Source of the DNA: Cryobacterium glucosi
Lineage (GTDB): Bacteria; Actinomycetota; Actinomycetes; Actinomycetales; Microbacteriaceae
Reading direction: 5' to 3'
NCBI RefSeq assembly: GCF_004402235.1
Contig: NZ_SOFS01000034.1
Location: 62,357 to 126,356 of the forward strand
DNA length: 64,000 bases
The notes below the pieces were generated by a model, which was not told the DNA's origin, did no database searches, and worked only from the letters and a program-made list of their open reading frames with translations. Below are positions 8,137-24,856 of this stretch, piece after piece; the stretch's first letter is position 1, and every line of letters begins with the position of its first letter. Position numbers and translations under genes: made by a program.

Positions 8137-8242
8137 CTAGGAAACGTACTCAACAGGGACGCTTCTGCGTACCCGGGCACCCGAAATGCCCCGCGTACGC
8201 CGAAACATCGCTGCTCGCATTGCTTACCCTGGAGTACCCGTC

Positions 8243-11200
8243 ATGCCGCTTTTCCGCCCTGCCATCGTGCCGCGCCACAAAAAGCGTCAGATCCTCTTCG
8301 ACCACGGTTTCCTCGCCCCGGCCCGGGCGCACATGCGGATCACGGCCAGCGTCCTGGCCGGCCTGCTCGTCGCCGTCGGCCTGACCGTCGGCGCCATTGT
8401 CGCCCCGGCGACCGCTGCCGGGATCGTCACCCTCACGGCCAGCAGCACGCCGACCATCCTCGCGGGCGAAAACGCGACCGTGAGCCTCACCGCGACGGCT
8501 CCTGCCGGCGGCACAACGGACTACTACAACCTCGCATTCCGGTACCAGCTGCCCGCCGGCGCGAGCTACGTCCCCGGCAGTACGGCGGGGGCAAGCGGCC
8601 CGGCCCTCCCTGACCCGACGATCGTGACGATCACCGACGTCGTGGGGCCGCCGGCGGTCACCCACCAGGTGCTGATCTGGCCGAACATCGCCGACCTCGT
8701 GCACGGAAGCACCACCGGCCTCACCTTCGGGATCACGCCAGACCCCTCCGTCTTCCTGGTCGGATCTCCCATCCCCGGCAATGCCGCCGTCTACGGTCAG
8801 ACCGACCCTCGACTGCTCGCCAAGTTCACGCCGACAACCGGCGTCGTCGTCGCAGGCAGCTTCGCATTCACGGATGCCGTCACTCCCGTTTCCACGAAGG
8901 TCGCCGCCCTCAAGGTCACCAAGACCGAACCGAGCCCCGAGCATGAACTCATGCGCGGCGCACAGGACCAGGCCACCGTCTACACAATCACCACCAAGAA
9001 CACCGGGGTCGCCGCCACGACCGGCGTCGTGCTCGTCGACTACCTCCCGGCCGGCCTCGAATTCCTCGGTTGCGGCAGTGTCGACAACAGTGCGGCAGGC
9101 ACAGAGGAGTACCCGGGCAGCGGCCCGCTCGGCTCCTCCACCGGCGGTCCCTCCTGCGCGACTCCCGCGCTCGTCGAAACGGTCAACGACCGAGCAGGCT
9201 TCCTCGGCCAGGTCTTCACGAAGGTCACCTGGAACCTCGGCACCCTCACGGCCGGGTCCACCCGCACCATCACCTATTCGGCCGCGATCCCGCTGAAGGC
9301 CAACACGATGTGGCCCGCCGGCCAGGTGCCCAACGCCGCCGCGCGCCTGCAGGCGGCCAACCTGGACAACAACACCGGGGCATCGACTCGCCAGGAGGCG
9401 CCAGCCGCCGCCGGCCAGGGCCTCACGAACACCGCAGTCGCCACCGGCACATACACCGGCCCCGTCGCCACTCCCGCGGATGCTGCCGCAACCTCGAGCG
9501 ACTCCGTGACCGTCAAAGCCATGGACCTGTCGATCGTCAAATCCGTGGACTCCTCGGACTTCGTGGCCGACGGCATCGCGCACTTCACCCTGCTGCTTCG
9601 ATCGAGTGAGTACACCACCGATTCCGCGATGACGATCACCGACGTCGTTCCCAACGGGCTCTGCCCGATCATGCCCGCTTCCGTCGTGGTGACCGGTCCG
9701 CGGGCCGGTCAGCTTCCGGCCGGCTGCACCGGAGGCGGCACGGTGACGGGCGCCACCGTCAACAGCGTCGTCGCCAACGCCGACGGCAGTTTCACGGTCG
9801 TGCTCACGCCGAACCCGACGAGCCTCCCGGTGAACACGAGTCGCACGATCGGCTACGACGCCCTGATGTCTTCGACCTACGCCGGAGACAGCCAAAGCGG
9901 GCCGACCGTCGCGGGAGACAGCTTCCTCAACACCGTCGGGATCACCGGCACGACAACCGACGTCACCGCCGGCCTCGGCAGCACGCCGGTCACAGACGAC
10001 TCGTCGGCCGGCCTCGCGTCATCCAGCCCGACCATCACCAAGAAGGTGCTTCCCCGCCCGGCCGCCGGTGGCACCGCCGTTGACTGCGCCGCCGCGGTCA
10101 ACGCGCCCAACTACACAGACACCCAGGTGCCGACCTACCACCTCGGCGACAAGGTCTGCTTCCAGCTGACCGTGGCGTTCGCAAGCTCAACCCGCACCCG
10201 CAACGCCCGCATCACCGACTTCACCCCGGTCGGAACGAGCTTCGACGGCTTCGCGCCCGCGTCAGGAAGCACCGTCGCCGTGAACCCCGCAACCGGCACA
10301 GAGTCGGCAACCCCGGCAGGCACCCTGCCCGCCGCCTGGAACCTCGGCACGCCGGACAACGGATCGACCGACCTCTACGTCGCCAAGGGCGCAACCCTGA
10401 CCCTCTTCGTGAGCGCCATCGTCACGTCGACGTCGCCGACCGCCGTCGTCGACATCACCGCGAACCTGATGAAGTACCGCCAGGAATCCACGGCAGGGGC
10501 CGTGCTCGCACTCCGTGACCAGGTCGACTACGCGATCGCCCCTGCCCCCACCGTCTCCCTCGCCAAGAAGATCTCCGCCGTCAACGGTGCAGCCCCGGCC
10601 GCGCCGGCAACAGACGTCAAGGTCAAAGAGGGCGACGTCGTGACGTACGCCCTCGACGTCGCGAGCACCGGAACGGCCGCCGCAGGCACCGATGTGCCGG
10701 TCGCTGCCGTACAGGTCTGGGACGCCCTCCCCGCCGGCTACACCTGCACCACGTGGATCGTCGCGTCGATCACACCCGCCGGCAGCTGTCTGAATCCCGG
10801 TGATTCCGGCTACCCGACCACAAATGCCGTGCCGGCCAACGCTCGCAGCGTCATCGTCTGGACCGTTCCGGGTCCACTCGCCCCAGGAGCGGCAGCTACC
10901 CGGCTCAGCTATGCGGTGACGGTTCCCACCGGCGTGAGCGTGTCGACGGTGTTCCCGAATACGGCATCCGTTGTCGCCTTCACCTCGCCGAACACCGCGG
11001 GCGGCGACACGGTCTACTTCCCGAAGGGCTCGTTGAACCCTGCCCATGACACCGACGGGAATGCGCTCCCGGCCAACAGCACCGCGCAGATCCGCCTCGC
11101 CGACGCCGCCGTGGCCAAGACCGGCGTGTCCCGGATCGTGGCGACCGGCAACACCGCCAACCAGGCCGTCGCGGGGGAGCTCGTCGACTACACCTTCTCC

Positions 11201-14200
11201 GTCACGGTGCCTGCTCATACGACCGTGTACAACGGAAAGCTCTCCGACGCGCTCCCGGCCGGACTGACCATTCCGGTCGGAACCGTCGCGACAGTGTCGA
11301 GCGTGCCGGCCGGCGGCTCATTCGACCCGACGAACGGCGCCCTGACCTTCCCTGCAACCTTCGACAACACCACCGCCGTGGACCAGGTCTTCACGGTGAC
11401 GCTGCCCGGCGTGCTCGTCGGCGTCGGTCTGGCCTCCGGAACGCTCACCAACACCGCGACCTTCGCGAGCAACGCCACCCTCGGCGGGACCGCGGTGACC
11501 CCGCGCACGGCGGCCAAGGCCATCACGGTCGTGACTCCACTGCCGACCCTCGCCAAGATCGTCGACAAGCCCACCGCCCAGGGCAATGACATCGTGACCT
11601 TCACTCTCACGGCCGGCAACACCGCCGGCCGCCCCGCAGCCTACGACTCCGTCGTCGTCGACTGCCTGCCCGCGGGACTGACCCTGACGGCCTTCCTCTC
11701 CCCTGCCGCTTCGCCGACGACGACGAGCGTGCCCGGGGACGGCACCAACGGGTGCGCCACCGGAACCACCAGGCTCGGCTGGGTGCTCCCCGGCACCGGT
11801 GCACTCCTGGCCCCCGCCACCACCGTGCTCACCTATTCGGCACGGGTCGCACCCAACTCCGCCGGGCTCGTCACGTACACCAACACGGCGAGCGTTACCG
11901 GCTCGACCCTGAGCAGCAACGGGGCGAACAACGCCCTCGTCGAGCGCGTCGTCTCTGCCGCCGCGTCGGCCGTCGTCACGGTCGAAGGCGCCACGACGGT
12001 CAAGACGGCCACCCCGAATGCCGTTGCGGTCGGCGGCGCGGTCGCATACACGATCACCGTCACCCTGCCCAAGAACGTCAACTTCTACAACGCATCCATC
12101 ATCGACACCCTGCCAGCCGGCGTGACCGCGAACGCAGGCTCCGCCACGGTCACCTGCCGCACCGCCACCGCCGTCGACTGCATCGCCACGCTGCCCAAGG
12201 GCCCCGGTTTCACCCTCGCCCCGTCCGGCCAGAAGATCGGGTGGCTCCTCGGGGACGTCGTCGCTGCGACCGAGGACCGCACCGTCACCGTCTCGGTCAC
12301 CGGCACCGTCACCACGGCGCCCGCCAACACCGCGGGAACGTTGCTGACCAACACGGCCGCTCCGCGCTGGAACGACACGGCCAAGTCCGATCCGTCCAAT
12401 GCCGCAGCGGGCTTCGACCGCACCGGCCCGGCCGGATCCGCGGGCGTCACCGTGCTCGAACCGGTGCTCAGAATCGCCAAGACCGTCTCCAACGCCACTC
12501 CGGAACCCGGCCAGGCCTTCACGTACACCGTCACCGCGACCAACGCGAACACAGCAACGACGTCCGACGCGTTCGCCGTGACCATCGTCGACACCCTTCC
12601 CGCCGGGATCGACCCTGCGAGCGTGACGAATATCTCCGGCAATGGTGTGCTCTCCGGCACGACCATCACCTGGACGATGCCGACCATCGCCAAGAACGCG
12701 TCCGTCACCCTGACCTTCGACGCCAGGCTGGCCGCGTCACCGAGCCTCACCGGCAGCGCGATCGTGAACAGCGTGAGCGTGACGAGCTACGCCTCCCTGG
12801 CGGCTGGCGGCCGGGTCTACACGGCCAACCCGCCGACGGCGACGGCGGCGGTCACCCCGCGCTTCCCGCACATTGACCTCGCCAAGACCGCGACCAACGG
12901 TGCGACCGCATACGTGAACACCCCGTTCGGCTGGACGCTGACGCTCACGAACACCGGAGCGGGCACCGCGGCGACCGTCACCCCGACGGATGTCCTTCCC
13001 GCGAACTGGGTGTACCTCGCCGGTTCAGGCACGGTCTCGATCGGGAGCGGCGCGGCCGGGCCCCTCGGCGACCCGACGGTGACCACCGCGAGCGGAGTGC
13101 AGACCCTGGCCTGGCCCGCGTTCACGGCCGTGGCCCCCGGAACCGTCATCAGCATCCGCTACAGCGCGCAGCCGACCGCTGCGGCAACCGTCACTCCGGG
13201 AGCCGGGGCGGGCATCCGCCACACCAACACCCTCTCGGCCTCCGCGACGGATGCCACCGGTGCGACCGGTCACGCCGGCCCCGCCCCGTACGCGGCGAGC
13301 CCGGTGACCGCTGACGCGCACATCGATGCGGCCGACGTCACCCTGGCCAAGACGGCCGGCTCGGCCCTCGTCGCCGGGCGCAGCACGCCGGATGCCTTCA
13401 GCATCACCGTCAGCAACACCGGACCGGACACTGCGGTCGGGGCCGTCGCCGGACACAACTTCACGGTCACGGACACCCCCACCCAGCCCTTGCCCACCGG
13501 CATCACCGTCACGGGGGCGACCGGCACCGGCTGGAGCTGCACGGTTCCGAACGCCGTGACCGGCGCCTTCAGCTGTGAACGTGTCAACGCGAACGAAACC
13601 CTCGCCGCAAACGCCGCATTCCCGGCGATCACGGTCGCCATGCTCGCCGGATCCGGTGTGCCGAATGGCACGGCCGTCGTCAACTCCGCCACCGTCTCCG
13701 CCCGAACCTTCGACCCGCTCCTCGGCAACAACACCGCGAGCGCGACGAACACGGTGACCACGAGCGCCGACCTCGGCATCACGAAGCTCGCCAGTGGCGT
13801 CTTCGCCGCCGGCGACACGGCGACCTGGACCATCGACGTCACCAACGCGGGTCCGTCGACCTCTGTCGGACCGATCACCGTGACCGACACCCTGCCCGGG
13901 CACCTCTCCGCCGTCTCGGTCACGGGAACCGGCTGGACCTGCACCACCGCAGCGACCCCGGTGAGCTGTGTCTCCGCGGGCGGCCTCGCGCTCTCCGCGA
14001 CCTCGCGCCTGACCGTGACCGCCACGATCGACTCCGACTTCACCGGCAGCCTCACCAACACGGTTGCCGTCACCGGGACGACGCCCGACCCGAACCCGGC
14101 CAATAACAGCTCCGCACCGACGACCCCGGTCGGGAGCGCAACAACGCTCTCGATCGCGAAGACCCTGCAGGATGCCCAGCTCGTGCCCGGAACGGATGCG

Positions 14201-16609
14201 ACCTACCGCTTCGTCGTCGCGAACACCGGCCGCGCCGACGCCCGTAACGTGCGGATCGCTGACGCGCTGCCCAACGGCCTGACCTTCGTGCGGCTCGCGG
14301 CCGGTACCCCCGGCGCCTGGACCTGCACCGAGACCAGCACCACTCCCTCGACCATCGGGTGCGTCCTCACGGGCACCCTGAAGCCCGGCGCCGGGGCCAC
14401 CCAGACCGTCGACGTCGTGGTCGCGGTGCCGAGCGGCCTCACCGGTTCCGTCGTCAACACCGCGACCGCAGGAGCAGACAACGCCCCCGACGCGAGCGAC
14501 AACACCAACACGGGACTGATCGGCAAGGCCGATCTGGGAATCACCAAGACCCACCCCGCCGGCGCCGTGACGGCAGGCACCGACCTGACGTACTCCCTCT
14601 CGGTGACCAACTACGGTCCGTCGGACGCCCCGGCAGGCACCGTCGTGACCGACCACATCCCGGCAGGGCTGGTCGCCCAGGGCGCGGACGGTGGCGCCGA
14701 CTGGACCTGCGCTGCACCCGTCGGACAGGATGTGACGTGCACGAGCACGAGCATCCTTCCCGTGGGAGCCACGGCAGGCGTCGTCTCCGTGACCGTCGGC
14801 ATCCCGGCGAACGCCGGGCCCGCCGGCTTCACCAACGTCGCGGACGTGACCGGGGTTCTCGACGAGCCAACGCCGAACGCGCACCCCAACACCGCGAGCG
14901 ACCCGACCGACGTGACCACGCACGCCGACGTCACGATCGTCAAGACGATCGTGCCGTCCGCTCGCACCGTCACCGCCGGTGGCAGCATCGGCTACGCCCT
15001 GACGGTCACCAACGCCGGTCCGTCGACCGCGGATGCGCTCACGGTCGCCGACACTCTGCCGGCCGGTTTCACCGCCACCGCGATCAGCGGTGCCGGCTGG
15101 ACCTGCGTCCTGGCCAGCCTCAGCTGCACCCGCGCCCAGCTCGGCGTGACGAACTCCGTGATCAGTGTCACGGCATCCGTTGCCGCAGCGGTGCCTGACG
15201 GCACCCGCGCGGTCAACACCGCGACCGTCGGCTGGACCGACAGCCGCTCATCCGCCCACACCGACACCGACACCGTGCCCGTGACCGTTGTCGCGATCGC
15301 CGACCTCGAGCTGAACCAGTCGACCGCGACGGCGACCCCCCTCGCGGGCGCTGACGTCGTCTTCGACTTCGCGCTGCGTAACGTCGGCACCTCGGACGCC
15401 ATCGGTCCGATCACGATCACCGACACCCTGCCGGCCGGGCTCCGGTTCCGTTCGAACACGGTGGGCTGGACCTGTGTCGCGAGTGCCGTTGCCGCCAGCG
15501 CCCCGCAGGTCGTCACCTGCACCCTCGGTGACGGGAGCACCGGCCTCGCCGCCGGCGGCACGGCGACCGCGCTCTCGATCACGGTGAGCACTGACCCGAC
15601 TCTCGGTGCCGTCACGCTCGACAACCCCGCGATCGCCGCGACACCGACAACGGAGTCCACGCTCGTCAACAACCCGAGCCCCGTGCGGGTGCTCTTCGCC
15701 CGCAGCGCCGACCTGTCCCTCGTGAAGACCCACATCGGCTCAGGCGCGATCGGCGCTCCGACCCCCTTCACCCTCACGGTCTCCAACGCGGGACCGTCCA
15801 GCGCCGTCGGGGTCCGGGTGGTCGACACCCTCCCGGTCGGGCTCACCTGGGTCGACAGCGCGGGTAGTGACCCGGCGTGGTCGTGCTCGGCTGCGGCGTC
15901 GACCCCCGTCGGCTCGACGGATGTCTCGTGCGCCCTCGCGACGCCCGTCGCCGCCGGCGCGGACGCGCCGACCCTCGTCGTGAACGCCCTCGTCGACGCA
16001 CGGTCGTTCCCGACGGTCACGAACGCCGCCGCCGTCACCGCGGTCACCCCCGACCCGGACCCGGCAAACAACTCGGCGACCGATCCCCTCGTCGTCGCCC
16101 CGCTGGTGAGTCTCGCTGTGACGAAGCACCACACCGGGCAGGCCATCATCGGATCGAACCTGGACTACCTCGTCGCGGTCACGAACACCGGAGCCACGGC
16201 AGACCCGGGTGGATTCACCGTGGTCGACGTGCTCCCGGCCGGGCTCAGCTACGTCTCCGGCCACGGCGACGCCGTGACCTGCGCCGCAGGGTCCGACGCG
16301 GCGCTGGTCACGTGCACCTTCGCCGGCGCGCTGGCCGTCGGGGCGACCCGCACGGTCACGATCACGGTGTCAGTGCTGGCCACTGCGTTCCCGACCGTGG
16401 TCAACACGGTCACCGCGCACAGCCTCTACGCCGACCCGGCTGCCCCGGCGGCCCAGGCGAGCGACTCCGCGACCGTTCTGAAGGCCCTCGCGCACACCGG
16501 AATCGACCTTCCGGTTGAGCTCCTCGCCCTGCTCGCCCTCCTCGCTCTCCTGCTCGGTGCCGCGCTCGTCCTCACGAGTCGACGACGCCGCGCCCAGCGT
16601 GCCGAATAG
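8243..16609 (+). CDS. Giant secreted DUF11-repeat surface protein with LAHTG sortase signal
   Basis: About 2,788 aa, the largest gene here. Beginning at ATG 8243 (GGAG upstream; another in-frame ATG 57 nt earlier is possible), a basic region is followed by a signal-peptide core (MRITASVLAGLLVAVGLTVG) ending near APATAAG. The body is a chain of immunoglobulin-like DUF11 domains of ~120-130 aa, each with the pattern xxIxKT...YxxxVTNxGPS...VTDTLPAGL...NTA. Seven well-defined repeats fill 13,768-16,480, and each has a Cys pair (for example GWTCTTAATPVSC) that probably forms a disulfide. The end is a cell-wall sorting signal: LAHTG (an LAxTG type used by class E sortases), a hydrophobic helix and RRRR. 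Likely a wall-anchored adhesin, stalk or fibre. No sortase gene is in the window. Confidence 0.85.
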   Translation: MPLFRPAIVPRHKKRQILFDHGFLAPARAHMRITASVLAGLLVAVGLTVGAIVAPATAAGIVTLTASSTPTILAGENATVSLTATAPAGGTTDYYNLAFRYQLPAGASYVPGSTAGASGPALPDPTIVTITDVVGPPAVTHQVLIWPNIADLVHGSTTGLTFGITPDPSVFLVGSPIPGNAAVYGQTDPRLLAKFTPTTGVVVAGSFAFTDAVTPVSTKVAALKVTKTEPSPEHELMRGAQDQATVYTITTKNTGVAATTGVVLVDYLPAGLEFLGCGSVDNSAAGTEEYPGSGPLGSSTGGPSCATPALVETVNDRAGFLGQVFTKVTWNLGTLTAGSTRTITYSAAIPLKANTMWPAGQVPNAAARLQAANLDNNTGASTRQEAPAAAGQGLTNTAVATGTYTGPVATPADAAATSSDSVTVKAMDLSIVKSVDSSDFVADGIAHFTLLLRSSEYTTDSAMTITDVVPNGLCPIMPASVVVTGPRAGQLPAGCTGGGTVTGATVNSVVANADGSFTVVLTPNPTSLPVNTSRTIGYDALMSSTYAGDSQSGPTVAGDSFLNTVGITGTTTDVTAGLGSTPVTDDSSAGLASSSPTITKKVLPRPAAGGTAVDCAAAVNAPNYTDTQVPTYHLGDKVCFQLTVAFASSTRTRNARITDFTPVGTSFDGFAPASGSTVAVNPATGTESATPAGTLPAAWNLGTPDNGSTDLYVAKGATLTLFVSAIVTSTSPTAVVDITANLMKYRQESTAGAVLALRDQVDYAIAPAPTVSLAKKISAVNGAAPAAPATDVKVKEGDVVTYALDVASTGTAAAGTDVPVAAVQVWDALPAGYTCTTWIVASITPAGSCLNPGDSGYPTTNAVPANARSVIVWTVPGPLAPGAAATRLSYAVTVPTGVSVSTVFPNTASVVAFTSPNTAGGDTVYFPKGSLNPAHDTDGNALPANSTAQIRLADAAVAKTGVSRIVATGNTANQAVAGELVDYTFSVTVPAHTTVYNGKLSDALPAGLTIPVGTVATVSSVPAGGSFDPTNGALTFPATFDNTTAVDQVFTVTLPGVLVGVGLASGTLTNTATFASNATLGGTAVTPRTAAKAITVVTPLPTLAKIVDKPTAQGNDIVTFTLTAGNTAGRPAAYDSVVVDCLPAGLTLTAFLSPAASPTTTSVPGDGTNGCATGTTRLGWVLPGTGALLAPATTVLTYSARVAPNSAGLVTYTNTASVTGSTLSSNGANNALVERVVSAAASAVVTVEGATTVKTATPNAVAVGGAVAYTITVTLPKNVNFYNASIIDTLPAGVTANAGSATVTCRTATAVDCIATLPKGPGFTLAPSGQKIGWLLGDVVAATEDRTVTVSVTGTVTTAPANTAGTLLTNTAAPRWNDTAKSDPSNAAAGFDRTGPAGSAGVTVLEPVLRIAKTVSNATPEPGQAFTYTVTATNANTATTSDAFAVTIVDTLPAGIDPASVTNISGNGVLSGTTITWTMPTIAKNASVTLTFDARLAASPSLTGSAIVNSVSVTSYASLAAGGRVYTANPPTATAAVTPRFPHIDLAKTATNGATAYVNTPFGWTLTLTNTGAGTAATVTPTDVLPANWVYLAGSGTVSIGSGAAGPLGDPTVTTASGVQTLAWPAFTAVAPGTVISIRYSAQPTAAATVTPGAGAGIRHTNTLSASATDATGATGHAGPAPYAASPVTADAHIDAADVTLAKTAGSALVAGRSTPDAFSITVSNTGPDTAVGAVAGHNFTVTDTPTQPLPTGITVTGATGTGWSCTVPNAVTGAFSCERVNANETLAANAAFPAITVAMLAGSGVPNGTAVVNSATVSARTFDPLLGNNTASATNTVTTSADLGITKLASGVFAAGDTATWTIDVTNAGPSTSVGPITVTDTLPGHLSAVSVTGTGWTCTTAATPVSCVSAGGLALSATSRLTVTATIDSDFTGSLTNTVAVTGTTPDPNPANNSSAPTTPVGSATTLSIAKTLQDAQLVPGTDATYRFVVANTGRADARNVRIADALPNGLTFVRLAAGTPGAWTCTETSTTPSTIGCVLTGTLKPGAGATQTVDVVVAVPSGLTGSVVNTATAGADNAPDASDNTNTGLIGKADLGITKTHPAGAVTAGTDLTYSLSVTNYGPSDAPAGTVVTDHIPAGLVAQGADGGADWTCAAPVGQDVTCTSTSILPVGATAGVVSVTVGIPANAGPAGFTNVADVTGVLDEPTPNAHPNTASDPTDVTTHADVTIVKTIVPSARTVTAGGSIGYALTVTNAGPSTADALTVADTLPAGFTATAISGAGWTCVLASLSCTRAQLGVTNSVISVTASVAAAVPDGTRAVNTATVGWTDSRSSAHTDTDTVPVTVVAIADLELNQSTATATPLAGADVVFDFALRNVGTSDAIGPITITDTLPAGLRFRSNTVGWTCVASAVAASAPQVVTCTLGDGSTGLAAGGTATALSITVSTDPTLGAVTLDNPAIAATPTTESTLVNNPSPVRVLFARSADLSLVKTHIGSGAIGAPTPFTLTVSNAGPSSAVGVRVVDTLPVGLTWVDSAGSDPAWSCSAAASTPVGSTDVSCALATPVAAGADAPTLVVNALVDARSFPTVTNAAAVTAVTPDPDPANNSATDPLVVAPLVSLAVTKHHTGQAIIGSNLDYLVAVTNTGATADPGGFTVVDVLPAGLSYVSGHGDAVTCAAGSDAALVTCTFAGALAVGATRTVTITVSVLATAFPTVVNTVTAHSLYADPAAPAAQASDSATVLKALAHTGIDLPVELLALLALLALLLGAALVLTSRRRRAQRAE

Positions 16610-18307: not shown

Positions 18308-20512
18308 TCAGCCGATCAGGCTGGGGCGCAGGTCGCGCAGGGTGCGGAAGTGCGTCATCCGGGTGACGCCGACCGCGGCCAGCACGAGGCCGCCGACGAC
18401 CCAGAGGAGCAGCACCCCGGCATCCGCCCAGGCCGTGGCCGGGTTGCCGCCGTACATCAACTGGCGGATGCCGTCGACCGCGTAACTCATCGGCACCACG
18501 TGGTGCAGCCAGGCGAGCGGCGCCGGCAGGGTCTGCCACGGGAAGGTCCCGCCGGCGGTGACGAGCTGGATCACCATGAGCACGAGGCCGACGAACTGGC
18601 CGACGCTGCCGAGCCACACGTTGAGCGCGAGGATGATCGCCGCGAACGCGAGGGCGGCGAGCCCCATCATCCCGTAGGTGCCGACCGGGTTGTGCACCTC
18701 GAAGTGCAGGATTCCGGCGAGGATGCCGAACAGCGCCGCCATCTGCACGAGGCCGAGGAGGCCGGGGGTGAGCCAGCCGGCGAGGGTGATCTTGAGCGGG
18801 GAGTGCAGGGCCGTGATCGCCCGGCGTGACACCGGTTTCACGATCAGGAACAGCGCGTAGATGCCGATCCAGCCGGCGAGGCTTGCGAAGAACGGGGCCA
18901 TGCCGGCGCCGTAGGTCCCGGCGGAGGTGACGGCAGCGGTCGTGAGCGACACCGGGTCGGCGATCGTCGAGCCCTGCAGGGTGCGGGTCTGGGCGTCCGA
19001 ATTCGGGATGCTCGTCACCCCGTTCGCGAGGCCGTCGCGCAGTACGCCCGCGCCGGACTGCAGGGTGACGAGCCCGCTGTTGAGGCTCGTCGCGCCGGTC
19101 GCAATGCTTTCGGCGCCGGTCGCCGCGGTACTCGCGCCGGTGGCGGCGGATGCTGCACCGTCGTTGACCGTTCCGGCCCCGGCCGCAAGCGTTGCGGCCC
19201 CTGTAGCGGCGTCGGTCGCGCCGCTCGCGACGTTGCTTGCACCGGCGGCCGTCTGCGCGGCGCCGGCGGCGAGGGTTGCCGCACCGGTTGCGGCGGCGGC
19301 GGCGCCGGCAGCGACGGTTGCCGCGCCGGTGGCGACGCCACCCGCACCCGCGTTGAGGGCCGTGAGCTTTCCGTCCTTCGTGATGAGGCCGTCGAGGCCG
19401 GCCTGGACTCCGGCTGCCTGCGCGCTGGCGGTCTTCATACCGGTAGTGACGGTTGTCAACTGGAGGAGCGCAGCGTCAACATCGGCGGTGCTGAGATTGG
19501 CCGACGTCAGCTGTGTCCTGATAGCGGTCAGACTCGATTCGAGAGCTGTCGTCGTCGTCGCGTTAAGTGTCGTGACTGCATCGCCAGTAGCCGCGGAAAG
19601 GGCAGGCACGCCCTTCTCAAGCAGCGCCTTGGTCCCTGCCGACACGGAGGCCGCTCCTGTGGAGAGCGGGACTGTCCCGTCGGCAAGCTTCTTCGTTCCG
19701 GCCGCGAGGTCTGCAGCGCCGCCGGAGACCTTCGTCGCCCCTGCAGACACCTGGCTGGCGCCGGTCGCGAGCGTCGCAGTCCCGGTGGCAAGGCTCGTTG
19801 CCCCGCTCGAGAGCTGGCTCGTTCCGGTCGCGAGCTGGCCGAGGCCGGAGGCGAGCACGCCCACGCCGCTGGAGAGCCGGGCGGCACCGGTTGCGAGGCT
19901 TGCGCTCCCGTCGGATGCGGTCGTCGCGCCATCCGTCAGCTTGGTCGCGCCGTCCGCGGCCGTGACGAGGCTCGAGCGCACGTCGGACAAGCCGATCAGG
20001 AGCCGGTCGGCCGCTTCCTCATTGACCTTCGAGACGATGGCCTCCCGGATCTTCGTCGCGGCCTGGCCGCCGATCGTCGAAGCGAGATAGCTGTTCGTGT
20101 CGTTCGTGGTGAGGGTGATCACCGACTTCCGCGGTGTCGACGTGGCCGAGGATGCGATGCCCTCGGAGAAGTCGGCCGGAATGGTCACGCTGAAGTCATA
20201 GCTCGCGTCGGCGACGCCGGCCGCGGCCGTGGCCGCGGAGACACGGTGCCATTGGAAGGCTCCGGCGTCGGTGAGCTGCGTTGCGATGTCGTCGCCGTAG
20301 TTGTGGCTCACATCGTCGATGACCGTCCCCGTGTCGGCGACGACGAGGGCGACCGGCACGCGGTCGAGACCCGCATACGGGTCCTGGTTGGCCCACAGGT
20401 ACAGGCCGCCGTAGAGCACGGGCACGAGCAGCAGGGCGGCGAGGGCGACCCGGGACATCACGGTTGCGGTCAGTCGCGCCAGTTCGGCGCGAATCATGGC
20501 GAAAACTTTCAC
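18308..20512 (-). CDS. YhgE/Pip-type membrane protein (ABC-2-like permease), left half of mirrored pair
   Basis: 734 aa. One N-terminal transmembrane helix (RVALAALLLVPVLYGGLYLW), a large extracytoplasmic domain, then about five helices at the C-terminus (from ~residue 545). The extracytoplasmic part begins with the conserved VPVALVVADTG and FSVTIPADFSEG segments of the YhgE/Pip family and continues into hundreds of residues of short Ala/Gly/Thr-rich repeats (ATGAATLAAGAA-like). The family includes the phage infection protein of Lactococcus and type VII secretion-linked membrane proteins. The GTG start overlaps the stop of the ATPase-like gene (GTGA), so the two are translationally coupled. 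Probable envelope transporter of unknown cargo. Confidence 0.8.
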   Translation of the reverse strand: MKVFAMIRAELARLTATVMSRVALAALLLVPVLYGGLYLWANQDPYAGLDRVPVALVVADTGTVIDDVSHNYGDDIATQLTDAGAFQWHRVSAATAAAGVADASYDFSVTIPADFSEGIASSATSTPRKSVITLTTNDTNSYLASTIGGQAATKIREAIVSKVNEEAADRLLIGLSDVRSSLVTAADGATKLTDGATTASDGSASLATGAARLSSGVGVLASGLGQLATGTSQLSSGATSLATGTATLATGASQVSAGATKVSGGAADLAAGTKKLADGTVPLSTGAASVSAGTKALLEKGVPALSAATGDAVTTLNATTTTALESSLTAIRTQLTSANLSTADVDAALLQLTTVTTGMKTASAQAAGVQAGLDGLITKDGKLTALNAGAGGVATGAATVAAGAAAAATGAATLAAGAAQTAAGASNVASGATDAATGAATLAAGAGTVNDGAASAATGASTAATGAESIATGATSLNSGLVTLQSGAGVLRDGLANGVTSIPNSDAQTRTLQGSTIADPVSLTTAAVTSAGTYGAGMAPFFASLAGWIGIYALFLIVKPVSRRAITALHSPLKITLAGWLTPGLLGLVQMAALFGILAGILHFEVHNPVGTYGMMGLAALAFAAIILALNVWLGSVGQFVGLVLMVIQLVTAGGTFPWQTLPAPLAWLHHVVPMSYAVDGIRQLMYGGNPATAWADAGVLLLWVVGGLVLAAVGVTRMTHFRTLRDLRPSLIG

Positions 20513-21177
20513 AGGACATCGGCTCCGGGGATGGTGACGGGGAAGCGGGTGAGTCCGGCGGGCAGCATGCCGTCCGGCTCCAGGTTGGCGAGCTCGAGGT
20601 CAGCGATGGCGTGCGCCGAGGCGTCGCCGGCGATGACGAGCACCGCATAGCCACGCGCCGCCAGTCCACCGGCGATGTCCCACCAGCCGAGCGGATCGCC
20701 GCCGTGGCGGTCGGGAGAGGTGAGCACAAGCCCCAGCACGCCGTCGCGCAGCACGGCCAGTTCGGTCAACAATCGGATGCGGTCGTCGGGCGCGAGGTCG
20801 CCCATGTCGCTCCGCGCCCGGTCGGCGAGGCCGAGCCCGGCGAGCAGGTGCTGGGTGGACTTGCGACGGAGGCCGGCGAACATGAGCTCTTCGGCGACGA
20901 CGTCTTCGACCATGACGTCCGCGGCGGGCTCCGAGACGCCGAGGGCGTCGACGAGAGCGATCTGGCGACGCAGTGCGGCGTAGTCGGTGTGACCGTCGAT
21001 CGTGACGGTCCCGCTGTCCGGGCGCATCCGGCCGGAGGCGATGAGGCCGAGGACCGTGGGACGGCGTTCGGTCTCGGCCCGGGCGAAGGCGACGGCGCCA
21101 CTGCTGAATTCCAGGGTCGTCGACGGAAGGGCAGAGTCTCTCGGGCCCTTGGTGACGGACGAGAGGTTAACGCGCAT
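20509..21177 (-). CDS. Degenerate ABC-transporter ATPase-like protein (no P-loop)
   Basis: 222 aa. By eye it aligns with ABC ATPases: the place of the Walker A loop (after FSSGAVAF) reads ARAETERRPTVLGLIASG, followed by the typical RMRPDSGTVTIDG. The Gly-rich loop and its Lys are missing. The signature region reads LAPDDRIRLLTELAVLRD, and Walker B (GVLGLVLTSPDRHG) has Thr-Ser where Asp-Glu are required. It should not hydrolyse ATP. The start at 21177 has GGAGG upstream. It is coupled to the YhgE/Pip gene and transcribed away from a second, better-preserved ATPase gene; a structural or regulatory partner role is inferred. Confidence 0.7.
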   Translation of the reverse strand: MRVNLSSVTKGPRDSALPSTTLEFSSGAVAFARAETERRPTVLGLIASGRMRPDSGTVTIDGHTDYAALRRQIALVDALGVSEPAADVMVEDVVAEELMFAGLRRKSTQHLLAGLGLADRARSDMGDLAPDDRIRLLTELAVLRDGVLGLVLTSPDRHGGDPLGWWDIAGGLAARGYAVLVIAGDASAHAIADLELANLEPDGMLPAGLTRFPVTIPGADVL

Positions 21178-21296
21178 GCGAGCGCCTCCGGAGGTGAGAG
21201 GAAACCCATACGACGTCGGCACGGGTTCCGGGGGGAAGGAATAGGCATCGCGGCGCTGGGACTGAGGCCACTCTAATTCACCAGCACGAGATTTTT

Positions 21297-21310
21297 ACTG
21301 ACTAGTCAGT
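21297..21310. promoter_or_regulatory. TetR-type operator 1 (left promoter)
   Basis: Perfect 14-bp palindrome ACTGACTAGTCAGT in the divergent region between the two ATPase-like genes. The likely ligand is the TetR protein encoded at 24,284, at the far end of the right operon. Confidence 0.7.
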
Positions 21311-21363
21311 TCTGGTCAGACGCGGGGTCGTCGGGTGATCGAGGTGGACGAAGCCGGACCTGC

Positions 21364-21403
21364 TTGCGCGGGGCGTTCGACGGATCTATACTGACTAGTC
21401 GGT
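21364..21403 (+). promoter_or_regulatory. Promoter of the right Pip operon with TetR-type operator 2
   Basis: TTGCGC (21364-21369), 17-nt spacer, TATACT (21387-21392). The palindrome ACTGACTAGTCGGT (21390-21403, one mismatch from operator 1) overlaps the -10 box and transcription start, an arrangement that gives repression. Confidence 0.65.
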
Positions 21404-21434
21404 ACAAAACGAGTACCGCCACGAAAGGAACGAC

Positions 21435-22112
21435 GTGCAGGCGACACTGGTAGCGGACGAACTGACTGTCAGTTACAAACGAGGCCTGGTCTACGGGCCG
21501 ATCAGCTTCAGCGCCGATGACGGCCTCACGGTCATCTGCGGCCCGGCCGGCAGTGGGCGCACGAGCCTGCTCCTCACCCTCGCCGGGCGGATGCGGCCAA
21601 CCTCCGGAACCTTGTCGGTGCTCGGCGAAGACCTTCCCCGCCGCGCCCGCCGGGTCCAGCGCCGCACCGGCGTGTCCGGGTTCCACGGCATCGACTCCCT
21701 CGAAGAGTCGGTCACCGTCGGGGCGGCCATCCGCGAGCGCCACGCCTGGCTCGCCCCCTGGTGGTCCTTCATCCGGGCGGTCGACGACGCCGAGGTCGTC
21801 CGCGTCTGCGCGCCGGTCTTCGGCGATATCCCGGTTCCGGCCGCGAGCACGATGATCTGGGACCTCGACGAGGTCGAGATGGTGCTCCTCCGCGCGTCGC
21901 TGGCCATGATGAGTCGGCCCAGCGTGCTGTTCTTCGACCAGGTCGAGCAGGTGCACTCCCCGGAGGCACGCCGCCTGCTCTGGGCCCGGCTCGGCGCGAT
22001 CGTCGCAGCCGGCACTCCCGTGATCGCCTCGGCCATCGCACCGGACTACGAAATGTGGGCGGAACTCGGACTCGAACCGACCGTCCAGTACATGAACCAG
22101 GAGATTCGCTAG
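21435..22112 (+). CDS. ABC ATPase-like protein with non-canonical Walker motifs
   Basis: 225 aa, clearly ABC-type in order: FSADDGLTVICGPAGSGRTSLLLTLAGRM (shown in pieces: Walker A is GPAGSGRTS), a Q-loop region, and SVLFFDQVEQ as Walker B. Two key residues differ. The invariant Walker A Lys is Arg (SGRTS), and the catalytic Glu after the Walker B Asp is Gln (FFDQ), the same change used experimentally to block hydrolysis. The LSGGQ signature reads WDLDEVEMV. ATP binding may survive while hydrolysis is doubtful. GTG start with AAAGGA 6 nt upstream; the stop abuts the next ATG. Partner of the adjacent YhgE/Pip protein. Confidence 0.8.
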   Translation: MQATLVADELTVSYKRGLVYGPISFSADDGLTVICGPAGSGRTSLLLTLAGRMRPTSGTLSVLGEDLPRRARRVQRRTGVSGFHGIDSLEESVTVGAAIRERHAWLAPWWSFIRAVDDAEVVRVCAPVFGDIPVPAASTMIWDLDEVEMVLLRASLAMMSRPSVLFFDQVEQVHSPEARRLLWARLGAIVAAGTPVIASAIAPDYEMWAELGLEPTVQYMNQEIR

Positions 22113-24245
22113 ATGTTCGCCTTCCTATCCACGGGCACCGAACTGCGCCGATTCGGCAAGGGCACCCTGCCCAAGATCGCGCTCGTCGTGTTGATGTTCA
22201 TTCCCCTGATCTACGGCGCCCTCTACCTGTGGGCCTTCTGGGCGCCGGACAAGGAACTCAGCAAGCTCCCGGTCGCCCTCGTCAACTCCGACACGGGCGC
22301 CGTCCGTGACGGCACGGACGTGACCGCGGGCAACGACCTCGTCGGCAAGCTCCTCGACGGTCACGACCTGGGCTGGGTCGAAACCAGCGCGGCCGACGCC
22401 GCCACCGGGGTGACCGACGGCGACTACTACTTCTCCGTCACCATCCCCGCAGACTTCTCCACGGATGCGATCTCCGCAGGCACAGACACCCCGACCGCTG
22501 CCGAGGTGCTCGTCGACTACAACGACAGCAACAGTTTCCTCGCCTCCACCCTCGGCAAGCAGGCCATGATCCAGCTGCGGGACGCCGTGTCCCTGAACAT
22601 CGGGGACCAGACCGTCAACACGATGCTCGTGGCCGTGAACAAGGCCGGTGACGGCATCCGCACCGCCGCGGCCGGTGCCGGAACGCTCGCAGACGGCCTC
22701 AGCACGGCCGAATCCGGCACAGGCACTCTCGTCGCCGGGCTGAACGACCTCTCCGCCGGCGCGTCCACCCTTGACGACGGCGCGGCACAGGTGGCCGACG
22801 GATCGTCGACGCTGGCCGCGGGGATAGGCACGCTGTCCTCGGGCGCGGCAACGCTCTCCTCTTCCTCGCTGAAGCTCTCCGACGGCGCGTCGACTGTCGC
22901 CGCGGGGACCCAGAAGGTGTCCGATGGACTCGCCTCGGCGGCCACGGGGGCAGCCACCCTCTCGGACTCCTCAGACCAGCTCGCCGCGGGGGCGACCTTG
23001 ATCGCGACGGGAACCGGACAGCTCGCAACCGGGACGAAGGACCTCGACGACGGCCTCGCGAAACTGGAGGCGGCCATGGCCGCTGCCCCGGCCGGCACGC
23101 CGGCATCCGCGTTCCTGCCGACCGTGACGAAGCTCGCGACCGGAGCCGACACCCTCAACACGAAGACGCAGGGCGCTGCCACCCAGGTTTCGGGATACGC
23201 GACGCTGAGCGGAAACTTCGCCACCGGCATGGGGACGCTCTCCGACGCGCTGACCGCAGGCGCCCCCGGGGCCGCCCAGGTGGCAGCCGGATCGGCGCAG
23301 GTGGCCTCCGGATCGGCGGCCCTCGCCTCCGGAGCAGGCCAGCTGGCCACCGGCGCGGCCACCGCCGCGACCGGGTCGGCCACGCTCGCCACCGGTGCGG
23401 ACAGCCTCGCCGCCGGAACCGGCACCCTCGTCGACGGCAGCAGCCAGCTCGTCGCGGGCGGCACCGCCCTGCAGTCCGGCACCGTGCAACTCGCCGACGG
23501 CAGCCACACCCTGGCCGATGCCCTCGCGACCGGAGCCGCGGACGCACCCAGCCTCACCGACGCGCAGATCTCCGAGAAGGCCGCGGTGATCGCGAACCCC
23601 GTCGACCTCAATCAACGGTGGGAGAACGCCTCGGACAGCTTCGGCGAGGGCTTCGCGCCCTTCTTCCTCGCCCTGGCCACCTTCGTCGGTGCACTCATCA
23701 CCTGGCTCATCCTGCGTGCCCTGCCGACCCGCGCGCTCGCCAGCGCCGCCTCGGGCCTGCGTGCCACGATGACCGGTTTCCTGCCGGCCATGGCGATCGG
23801 GTTGAGCCAGGTCATCATCATGGTCCTGGTGCTCGTCTACGGCATCGGGCTGACCCCGGCGCACTGGCTGGGCATGTCCGCGTTCATCTACCTCACAACG
23901 CTCGCGTTCCTGGCGCTGCAGCAGATGTTCATCATCCTGTTCGGCACGGCGGCAGGCCGCGTGATCAGCCTGGTGCTGCTCATGCTGCAGCTCAGCTCCT
24001 CCGGCGGGACCTATCCCGTCGAGACCACGCCGGAGTTCTTCCAGATCCTGCACCCGTGGATGCCCGCTTCCTACGTCGTCACCGGGCTGCGGCAGCTCAT
24101 CACGGGCGGGATCGACTCTAGACTGTGGCTTTCCGTGCTCGTTCTCGTAGGCATCCTGGTCGGCTCGATCGCGATCAGCGCCTGGAGCGCGTCTCGGCAG
24201 CGGATGTGGACGATCACCCGGCTGCACCCGGAACTGACCATCTAG
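22113..24245 (+). CDS. YhgE/Pip-type membrane protein (ABC-2-like permease), right half of mirrored pair
   Basis: 710 aa, same architecture as the left protein: an N-terminal helix (IALVVLMFIPLIYGALYLW), a conserved VALVNSDTGA and FSVTIPADFSTD head, a long Ala/Gly/Ser/Thr repeat domain (LSSGAATLSSSSLKLSDG-like, DG and AG every ~7 residues, possibly an extended coiled rod), and about six C-terminal helices ending in a short cytoplasmic tail. Start and stop are tightly packed with the ATPase-like gene. The two Pip proteins are similar but not identical, so they may form a heterodimeric permease or two parallel ones. Cargo unknown; drug, lipid or protein export are candidates. Confidence 0.8.
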   Translation: MFAFLSTGTELRRFGKGTLPKIALVVLMFIPLIYGALYLWAFWAPDKELSKLPVALVNSDTGAVRDGTDVTAGNDLVGKLLDGHDLGWVETSAADAATGVTDGDYYFSVTIPADFSTDAISAGTDTPTAAEVLVDYNDSNSFLASTLGKQAMIQLRDAVSLNIGDQTVNTMLVAVNKAGDGIRTAAAGAGTLADGLSTAESGTGTLVAGLNDLSAGASTLDDGAAQVADGSSTLAAGIGTLSSGAATLSSSSLKLSDGASTVAAGTQKVSDGLASAATGAATLSDSSDQLAAGATLIATGTGQLATGTKDLDDGLAKLEAAMAAAPAGTPASAFLPTVTKLATGADTLNTKTQGAATQVSGYATLSGNFATGMGTLSDALTAGAPGAAQVAAGSAQVASGSAALASGAGQLATGAATAATGSATLATGADSLAAGTGTLVDGSSQLVAGGTALQSGTVQLADGSHTLADALATGAADAPSLTDAQISEKAAVIANPVDLNQRWENASDSFGEGFAPFFLALATFVGALITWLILRALPTRALASAASGLRATMTGFLPAMAIGLSQVIIMVLVLVYGIGLTPAHWLGMSAFIYLTTLAFLALQQMFIILFGTAAGRVISLVLLMLQLSSSGGTYPVETTPEFFQILHPWMPASYVVTGLRQLITGGIDSRLWLSVLVLVGILVGSIAISAWSASRQRMWTITRLHPELTI

Positions 24246-24283
24246 GGTTGCGACCCGAACCGAGTGCGACGAAGGGACCGACT

Positions 24284-24856
24284 ATGCCACGTGCGACGGG
24301 AACAAAACGGGCGATCCTGGACGCCGCGCTGGAGCTGGCCGCCACCCGCGGGATCACCGGCACCACGATGGACGACGTTGCCGAGCTCGCGCACGTGGCC
24401 AAGGGCAGCCTGTACTACAACTTCAGCTCGAAGGACAAGCTCTTCGAGGCGCTGCTGGAGGAGGGGGTCGGCTCGCTCTCCGACTCCCTCCGGGCGGCGC
24501 GTGACGGGCTGCACGGGCGGGAGGCGCTCGTCGCGCTGATCGCGGTGCTCCTCGACCTGATCGAGTCGAACGCGGGACTCGCCAAGCTCATGGCGGCCGA
24601 GATCTTCCGCACCGACCGGGCCTGGCAGAAGACCCTCTTCGCCCTGCGGCACGAGGCCCTCGCCGTCTTCGCCGAGGCGATCGCCGAGGCCCGTCCGGCC
24701 ACGGCGGCAGCGGGAACGAGCGGGTTGATGGCGTCGAGCGTCTTCGGTGCCGTGCTCATGGCAGGCCTCGAATGGCTGGTGTTCGATCCCGACCGCGACC
24801 GCGACGAGGTCTCCGGGGCCATCCTCGAGTCGCTCTCGGGCGGCCTGCTCGCCTGA
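24284..24856 (+). CDS. TetR-family repressor of the Pip transporter module
   Basis: 190 aa. N-terminal TetR helix-turn-helix (residues ~5-50: ILDAALELAATRGITGTTMDDVAE, then HVAKGSLYYNFSSKDKLFEALL), followed by an all-helical ligand domain. The ATG has AAGGGA 8 nt upstream and lies 38 nt after the Pip gene, so it probably belongs to the same transcript. The paired ACTGACTAGTC palindromes in the divergent promoter are its most likely targets, giving autoregulated control of both arms. The inducer is unknown. Confidence 0.85.
   Translation: MPRATGTKRAILDAALELAATRGITGTTMDDVAELAHVAKGSLYYNFSSKDKLFEALLEEGVGSLSDSLRAARDGLHGREALVALIAVLLDLIESNAGLAKLMAAEIFRTDRAWQKTLFALRHEALAVFAEAIAEARPATAAAGTSGLMASSVFGAVLMAGLEWLVFDPDRDRDEVSGAILESLSGGLLA

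Follow-up and report, generated by a model that had tools for sequence, protein, structure and literature searches.

Catalytically degenerate ABC-fold partners of YhgE/Pip membrane proteins in Cryobacterium glucosi and other Actinomycetes

We analyzed a 64,000-nucleotide stretch of DNA (the window, G000:C40:62357-126356) from the 3.9-Mb genome of Cryobacterium glucosi, in which two divergent gene units lie between positions 18308 and 24856. Each unit encodes a YhgE/Pip membrane protein (Pip) and, directly upstream of it, a protein with the fold of an ATP-binding cassette (ABC) ATPase that is without the defining catalytic residues. This degenerate state is common to the homologues of the two proteins and appears to be held by purifying selection. 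They are probably non-hydrolysing ABC-fold proteins that serve as structural or gating partners of Pip in transporter-like complexes. What seems new here is the occurrence of ABC-shaped parts without their defining catalytic residues in units where all the encoded ABC folds are degenerate. An earlier, sequence-only reading of this DNA knew of no description of such a paired inactive arrangement. Among the papers listed by our literature search, which did not reach most subscription papers, none described ABC partners of Pip that are degenerate or the link to MMPL permeases set out below.

The two Pip units of the window

The left unit is on the minus strand. Its ABC-like gene (LEFT, 222 aa, 20509..21177) overlaps at its 3′ end the start of the gene for the left Pip (PIPL, 734 aa, 18308..20512). 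The start codon of LEFT is the ATG at 21177; the mechanical open reading frame (ORF) extends to 21222. On the plus strand, the right ABC-like gene (RIGHT, 225 aa, 21435..22112) abuts the gene for the right Pip (PIPR, 710 aa, 22113..24245), which starts on the base after the RIGHT stop codon. The third gene of the right operon encodes a TetR-family regulator (190 aa, 24284..24856, plus strand, ATG at 24284; PF00440, 64.4 bits), and a TetR gene in third place recurs in related right-type loci. The sequence-only reading had described two divergent pairs that end in a TetR gene. The two pairs, their genes and their coordinates hold, as does the TetR gene at the end of the right arm; the left arm has no terminal TetR gene.

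Both Pips belong to the YhgE/Pip family, with scores above the curated cut-offs of TIGR03061 for the N-terminal part (166.7 bits in PIPL, 173.6 bits in PIPR) and TIGR03062 for the C-terminal part (198.3 and 212.7 bits). Both also carry heptad repeats and an ABC-2-type membrane part with matches to PF12698 (71 bits in PIPL, 83.9 bits in PIPR) and PF01061. In PIPL, the heptad repeats occupy the middle of the protein, the ABC-2-like membrane part is C-terminal, and TIGR03057 repeats were found. There was also an EsaA match below the cut-off.

LEFT had no Pfam match at E<=1; its profile aligned with a profile of eight canonical ABC proteins (hhalign, 97.4%). The predicted structures of LEFT and RIGHT each form a full, confident ABC nucleotide-binding fold. 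These are single-chain models, which support the fold of each protein.

By the PF00005 description, LEFT and RIGHT thus have the fold of the family, and both fail on its catalytic motifs. In place of the Walker A consensus GxxGxGK[ST], the alignments give AETERRPT in LEFT (21055..21078, minus strand) and GPAGSGRT in RIGHT (21540..21563, plus strand). The Walker B/D-loop position of LEFT reads TSPDRHGGDP, of which SPDRHGGDP (20692..20718, minus strand) is aligned to the canonical LDEPTAGLSP. The Walker B of RIGHT reads FFDQVE (within SVLFFDQVE, 21921..21947, plus strand), with D168 followed by Q169. LEFT is therefore without a P-loop and the Walker B acid pair, and RIGHT has Arg for the Walker A Lys and Gln for the catalytic Glu, exactly as first read from the letters. 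In the alignment columns, the LSGGQ signature, the Q-loop Gln and the H-loop His are absent from both proteins. With these motifs gone, neither protein offers a canonical half-site. The single composite site between LEFT and RIGHT that had also been suggested is not supported.

LEFT is 93% identical to its counterpart in Cryobacterium algoricola. Its conserved stretches ETExRPT and PDRHGG occupy the places of the P-loop and of the Walker B/D-loop, and the P, R, H, G and G of SPDRHGGDP are among the columns that are invariant in 27 of 27 aligned homologues.

Degenerate motifs and selection among homologues

For comparison, we collected ABC-like proteins encoded directly upstream of Pip genes in Actinomycetes genomes (127 candidates, 120 after removal of copies). 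Loci of the window's family were chosen by similarity to the window proteins, and loci of the class by Pip score. The class survey covered 246 genomes, 81 with a Pip match and 67 with one over the cut-off. Its 90 Pip entries had a right-type partner (52), a left-type partner (16), a degenerate domain fused to an MMPL permease (15) or no detected partner (7); one place is counted twice in this total (L129 within L154), and L185, which has two Pips, is scored once as having none. Two over-cut-off Pips (G349:C149 and G294:C1:2876112) and the sub-cut-off Pip-like matches were left out of this survey.

None of the 120 proteins had LSGG at the signature (10 rows gapped there) or the D-E of Walker B (7 rows gapped at the Glu). 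The Q-loop Gln was present in one of the 120 and in all six canonical controls. These six, of 11 available, were picked by a motif expression that included LSGG and D-E, so for those two motifs they prove only that the columns are correct. The H-loop His was found in 0/120, in a column that is a weaker test because only three of the six controls have His there, the other three having Gln.

At the Walker A Lys position, the 66 free-standing right-type (type II) proteins have Arg (55), Lys (8) or Gln (3). On a maximum-likelihood tree of 85 rows, 59 of them with Arg and 10 with Lys, three changes between these two residues suffice, as against 9.5–9.6 with shuffled labels. Lys is absent from this position in all 39 left-type proteins, which carry Pro (31), His (5), Ala (1), Leu (1) or Arg (1) instead. 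Six left-type proteins from outside the window's family (L159, L160, L170, L175, L177 and L184) have His or Leu there, and most of them partly retain the P-loop glycines; they look like intermediates of loss. Some left-type genes are apparently broken, with one internal TGA in G001, G016 and G132 and a match split in two in G007 and G093.

The Gln for the catalytic Glu fared differently in this survey from the Arg of RIGHT and the missing P-loop of LEFT. It is confined to the nearest kin, namely three of the 66 type II rows and six Cryobacterium RIGHT sequences, all of which read FFDQVE (with GPAGSGRT in five and GPSGSGRT in the sixth). Asp is found at this position in 41/66 type II proteins, and the residue varies overall among D, N, G, S, Q, A and H. 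This variation rules out the Glu-to-Gln change, familiar as a laboratory trap of the ATP-bound state, as a design of the system.

Within Cryobacterium, the ratios of nonsynonymous to synonymous substitution rates (dN/dS) against the window sequence were 0.15–0.38 for LEFT (11 pairs) and 0.12–0.26 for RIGHT (5 pairs). Homologues with intact motifs in close relatives would have meant decay at this one locus. No homologue with an intact motif set was found among the 120 rows or in the Cryobacterium set, and local decay is ruled out.

Several observations weigh against partners that have lost ATP hydrolysis throughout. The P-loop pattern is GxxGxGR in 42 of the 66 type II proteins and GxxGxGK in five, and 51 retain the Walker B Asp; nucleotide binding by the right type is therefore possible, as is slow hydrolysis by way of the Asp found in place of Glu in 41 of 66. 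Lys itself is retained in eight type II proteins and in three of the 15 MMPL-fused ones. Both units are missing at E<=1e-20 from G078 and G141, which belong to the same genus as the window, so the window's units are dispensable; in G078, a Lys-type partner adjoins another Pip (L204). Finally, the complex could be completed by a canonical ATPase encoded outside the unit; the window genome has 111 ABC domain matches.

This last point leads to the first alternative. Since the operon encodes no working site, either the machine runs without ATP turnover or an ATPase from elsewhere joins it. In the latter case, the degenerate protein would pair in trans with an intact ABC ATPase, as in exporters with one degenerate site. 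To our knowledge, degenerate ABC sites stand beside a working one in the described cases, and actinomycetes have shared ATPases such as MsiK, which also counts for a partner in trans. The example at hand is human ABCG5/G8, where, in the available part of the source (PMC7756269), a degenerate site with a Walker A Lys-to-Arg change and a changed signature has a working site opposite. By analogy, that site would be the nearest precedent for RIGHT: it too combines a natural Lys-to-Arg change with an ABC-2-like membrane part. It differs in having one canonical site in the complex (PMC7756269, same part), whereas here the only ABC fold in the operon is degenerate. A partner in trans is nevertheless unlikely. 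No canonical partner site was found within the operon or beside the Pips examined. The strict canonical motif pattern occurs in 11 of 7250 ORFs of the loci, with no Pip partner among the matches listed. Moreover, LEFT has neither a signature nor a P-loop of its own, so that neither composite site of a LEFT-canonical dimer would be complete.

Alternatively, the proteins could be divergent but active ATPases, in which Arg and Asp or Gln stand in for Lys and Glu and ATP is hydrolysed slowly. The P-loop shape and Walker B Asp of most type II proteins and the deep tree fit this explanation. So do the Pip loci of other classes of the phylum: right-type partners occur at two of the 12, and these have Lys (GRNGSGKT), a V-D-D Walker B and no LSGG; no partner was detected at the other ten within the approximately 1.4 kb of flank covered. 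Yet the signature, the Q-loop, the H-loop and the catalytic Glu are all missing, bar the one Gln in 120, and the minority with Lys never combines it with LSGG or D-E in the 120 rows. In the LEFT branch, 38 of 39 proteins carry neither Lys nor Arg in the P-loop, and the genes are still under purifying selection. We consider hydrolysis by such substituted residues quite unlikely.

It is less likely still that the ABC-like gene, under relaxed constraint, survives as a decaying remnant only because of its translational coupling to Pip. The loss is graded, from Lys through Arg or His to no P-loop at all, and a few LEFT matches look broken, as noted above, both as expected of decay. Against it stand the dN/dS values far below 1, the five invariant residues of the Walker B/D-loop stretch, and the complete and confident folds.

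Independence of the two units and the putative operator of the right unit

The sequence-only reading took the two arms for one paired module. We searched 150 genomes of the family for LEFT and right-type matches at E<=1e-20 and found LEFT in 62, a right-type protein in 13, both in five (the window genome, G129, G098, G017 and G122) and the two side by side in just two, the divergent pair recurring in G129. LEFT thus occurs without a right-type protein in 57 of its 62 genomes, and a right-type protein without LEFT in eight of 13. Back-to-back pairing is rare, and the pair of a degenerate ABC-like protein and a Pip is common.

The Pips fall into cognate clades: all 27 LEFT genes compared precede a Pip nearest to PIPL, and all 16 right-type genes precede a Pip nearest to PIPR. 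Among the named loci, which are the best 80 of 312 relatives, 51 have the order TetR, LEFT, Pip and 10 the order LEFT, Pip. RIGHT adjoins LEFT in five of these loci, all within the 11 from Cryobacterium; in the other six Cryobacterium loci, TetR is directly divergent from LEFT. In Cryobacterium shii (L227, 5795-5956), a 37-residue fragment 65% identical to residues 651-687 of PIPR (E 4e-12; at the DNA level 98 bases, 78%, E 1e-16) precedes TetR, which indicates that the right pair was lost there and the left pair retained. The mirror image of the window thus comes from the local juxtaposition of two units whose inheritance, judged by their distribution and Pip clades, is independent.

A single heterodimer of LEFT and RIGHT with both Pips, suggested by their divergence from a shared operator region in the window, G129 and the five Cryobacterium loci, is largely refuted as a general arrangement by the family counts, by the left pair of C. 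shii with its mere PIPR fragment and by the separate cognate Pip clades, and we give it very little credence.

At L162 and L154, from genomes of one family (f22), two ABC-like/Pip units stand in tandem, separated by a TetR gene.

The intergenic region between LEFT and RIGHT (257 bp) contains two operator-like palindromes, neither assigned to a strand: site 1, ACTGACTAGTCAGT, at 21297..21310, and site 2, ACTGACTAGTCGGT, at 21390..21403, 31 nt upstream of the RIGHT start codon. A promoter consensus scan of this region gave no match. With the operator consensus derived from the window, 24 upstream regions (the window, 12 right-type loci and 11 Cryobacterium loci) had 25 sites in 21 regions at <=3 mismatches, compared with 0.115 in letter shuffles. 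No site was found at L090 and L098, where there is no TetR, and L088 had a 4-mismatch site only.

At <=2 mismatches, the palindrome was present in 17/27 loci of L101-L127, 14/33 of L152-L184 and 9/13 of L081-L093. It was found in 1/20 LEFT loci (L078, where RIGHT is present as well), in 1/67 named LEFT loci and in none of the 15 MMPL-fused loci. The form ACTGACYRGTCAGT occurred 24 times in 20 genomes, which had been chosen after the site was already seen at their module; each has one copy at the module, 16 have no other, and four have an extra (G151:C11:116712, G319:C1:5605914, G186:C413:32247 and G267:C29:30433). These off-module copies may be due to chance because they equal in number the occurrences of the reversed control in the same genomes (four).

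Judged by these counts, the palindrome is specific to the module across a wide range, and the right unit is an old operon of palindromic operator, ABC-like gene, Pip and TetR. With both a regulator gene and a conserved palindrome present, the right operon is probably controlled by its own TetR, which would bind the palindromic operator. In the window, the left pair sits behind that operator region too.

Elsewhere in the window (8186-16609), a 2807-aa ORF has repeated segments and a hydrophobic C-terminus and looks like a surface protein.

MMPL-fused forms, known systems and possible function

In a third architecture, a degenerate ABC-like domain forms the C-terminal tail of an MMPL permease, and the genes for this permease and a Pip overlap. 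The MMPL part was clear by Pfam in 5/5 proteins tested. Against the right-type profile, the tails scored weakly (21.8–60.3 bits) in 13/15 and above 160 bits in 2/15; Pfam ABC_tran, on the five tested, was over its cut-off in one, below it in two and absent in two, including the window genome's own. That unit (L197, 1975-5646, with the next Pip; G000:C33:19000-30500) scored 56.7 bits. An MMPL gene with a weak ABC-like C-terminus overlapping a Pip gene, with TetR nearby, was seen at L186-L190, L192-L195, L197, L198, L199 and L201. At L196 and L202, two of the seven entries without a detected partner, an MMPL gene is nonetheless present, and its product ends in a tail of about 235 residues. In four Leifsonia loci among the best 80 of 312 relatives, MMPL and Pip genes come immediately before TetR, LEFT and Pip.

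Some Pips stand alone. No ABC-like gene was found in the 3–4 kb flanks of five Pips on Bacillota and Deinococcota plasmids (Latilactobacillus, Leuconostoc, Staphylococcus, Paenibacillus and Deinococcus), whereas one adjoins each of the three actinobacterial plasmid Pips examined. Pip is therefore not invariably tied to an ABC-like gene, and the ABC fold in Actinomycetes looks like an added cytosolic part freed from catalysis.

The window Pips resemble Lactococcus Pip, Enterococcus PIPEF and EsaA (EsaA/YueB) of the type VII secretion system b (T7SSb) in their Pip domains, heptad repeats and sub-cut-off EsaA match. They differ from those of Bacillota in their ABC-like neighbors, absent beside the five plasmid Pips. 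PIPEF is required for phage DNA entry in Enterococcus, according to the accessible part of PMC4999554. Actinobacterial MMPL (RND) permeases are related through the third form, with its degenerate ABC-like C-terminus and its overlap with Pip; they differ in that no MMPL gene lies beside the two pairs of the window. Bacillus subtilis RbsA and NupO also keep a degenerate ABC site in a retained transporter, but there, in the portion of PMC11466899 available, it is one of two sites in fused nucleotide-binding domains.

In Saccharopolyspora hirsuta, a YhgE/Pip gene (F1721_04135) and a neighboring MMPL gene (F1721_04140) are listed as up with cholesterol (3.82 and 3.33), and the authors guess lipid export for the Pip gene (PMC9782250, as far as the available text goes). 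By analogy, this response may be a hint about cargo. Tables for lauric acid and butanol in other organisms, available as extracts, show a negative change for a YhgE/Pip gene, so a simple role in fatty-acid or solvent efflux is unsupported by them. In a ginkgolic-acid study, likewise available in part, Pip was altered in both non-sensitive Enterococcus isolates. Streptomyces SCO3366/3367, considered as a possible Pip/TetR case, was dropped since the source, in the part available, gives an MFS pair.

Under the reading of non-hydrolysing partners, each arm would supply one subunit pair, a Pip and a cytosolic ABC-fold protein that does not hydrolyse ATP. As in ABC half-transporters, two of each would assemble, and the ABC-fold dimer may serve the Pip dimer as a structural clamp or as a gate. 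The left type would be nucleotide-free, and the right type perhaps holds nucleotide without hydrolysis. The energy source of MMPL permeases is the proton-motive force. The sequence-only reading had allowed for an energy source other than ATP; MMPL permeases with a similar degenerate domain beside Pip are a hint of one, and proton-motive force via MMPL may supply energy where it is required. As to cargo, the TetR gene and the MMPL-linked relatives lead us to guess that the complex exports a hydrophobic compound or handles one in the envelope. A broader picture, which we offer tentatively and regard as doubtful in full, is that of widespread actinomycete ABC-type machines without ATP turnover, in which LEFT would be a nucleotide-independent clamp, the right type a locked nucleotide sensor and a fused proton-driven MMPL permease the energy source where one is needed, joining RND and ABC parts in one complex.

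A fully degenerate ABC family, spread over many families of Actinomycetes with graded loss, would raise the question of whether ATP turnover is needed at all for an ABC-shaped membrane protein to work. The findings point to a transporter-like machine that has retained the shape of its motor and lost the engine. The operator, the cognate pairs and the MMPL link provide handles on the YhgE/Pip proteins, which are still poorly understood and, in Bacillota, include proteins for phage entry.

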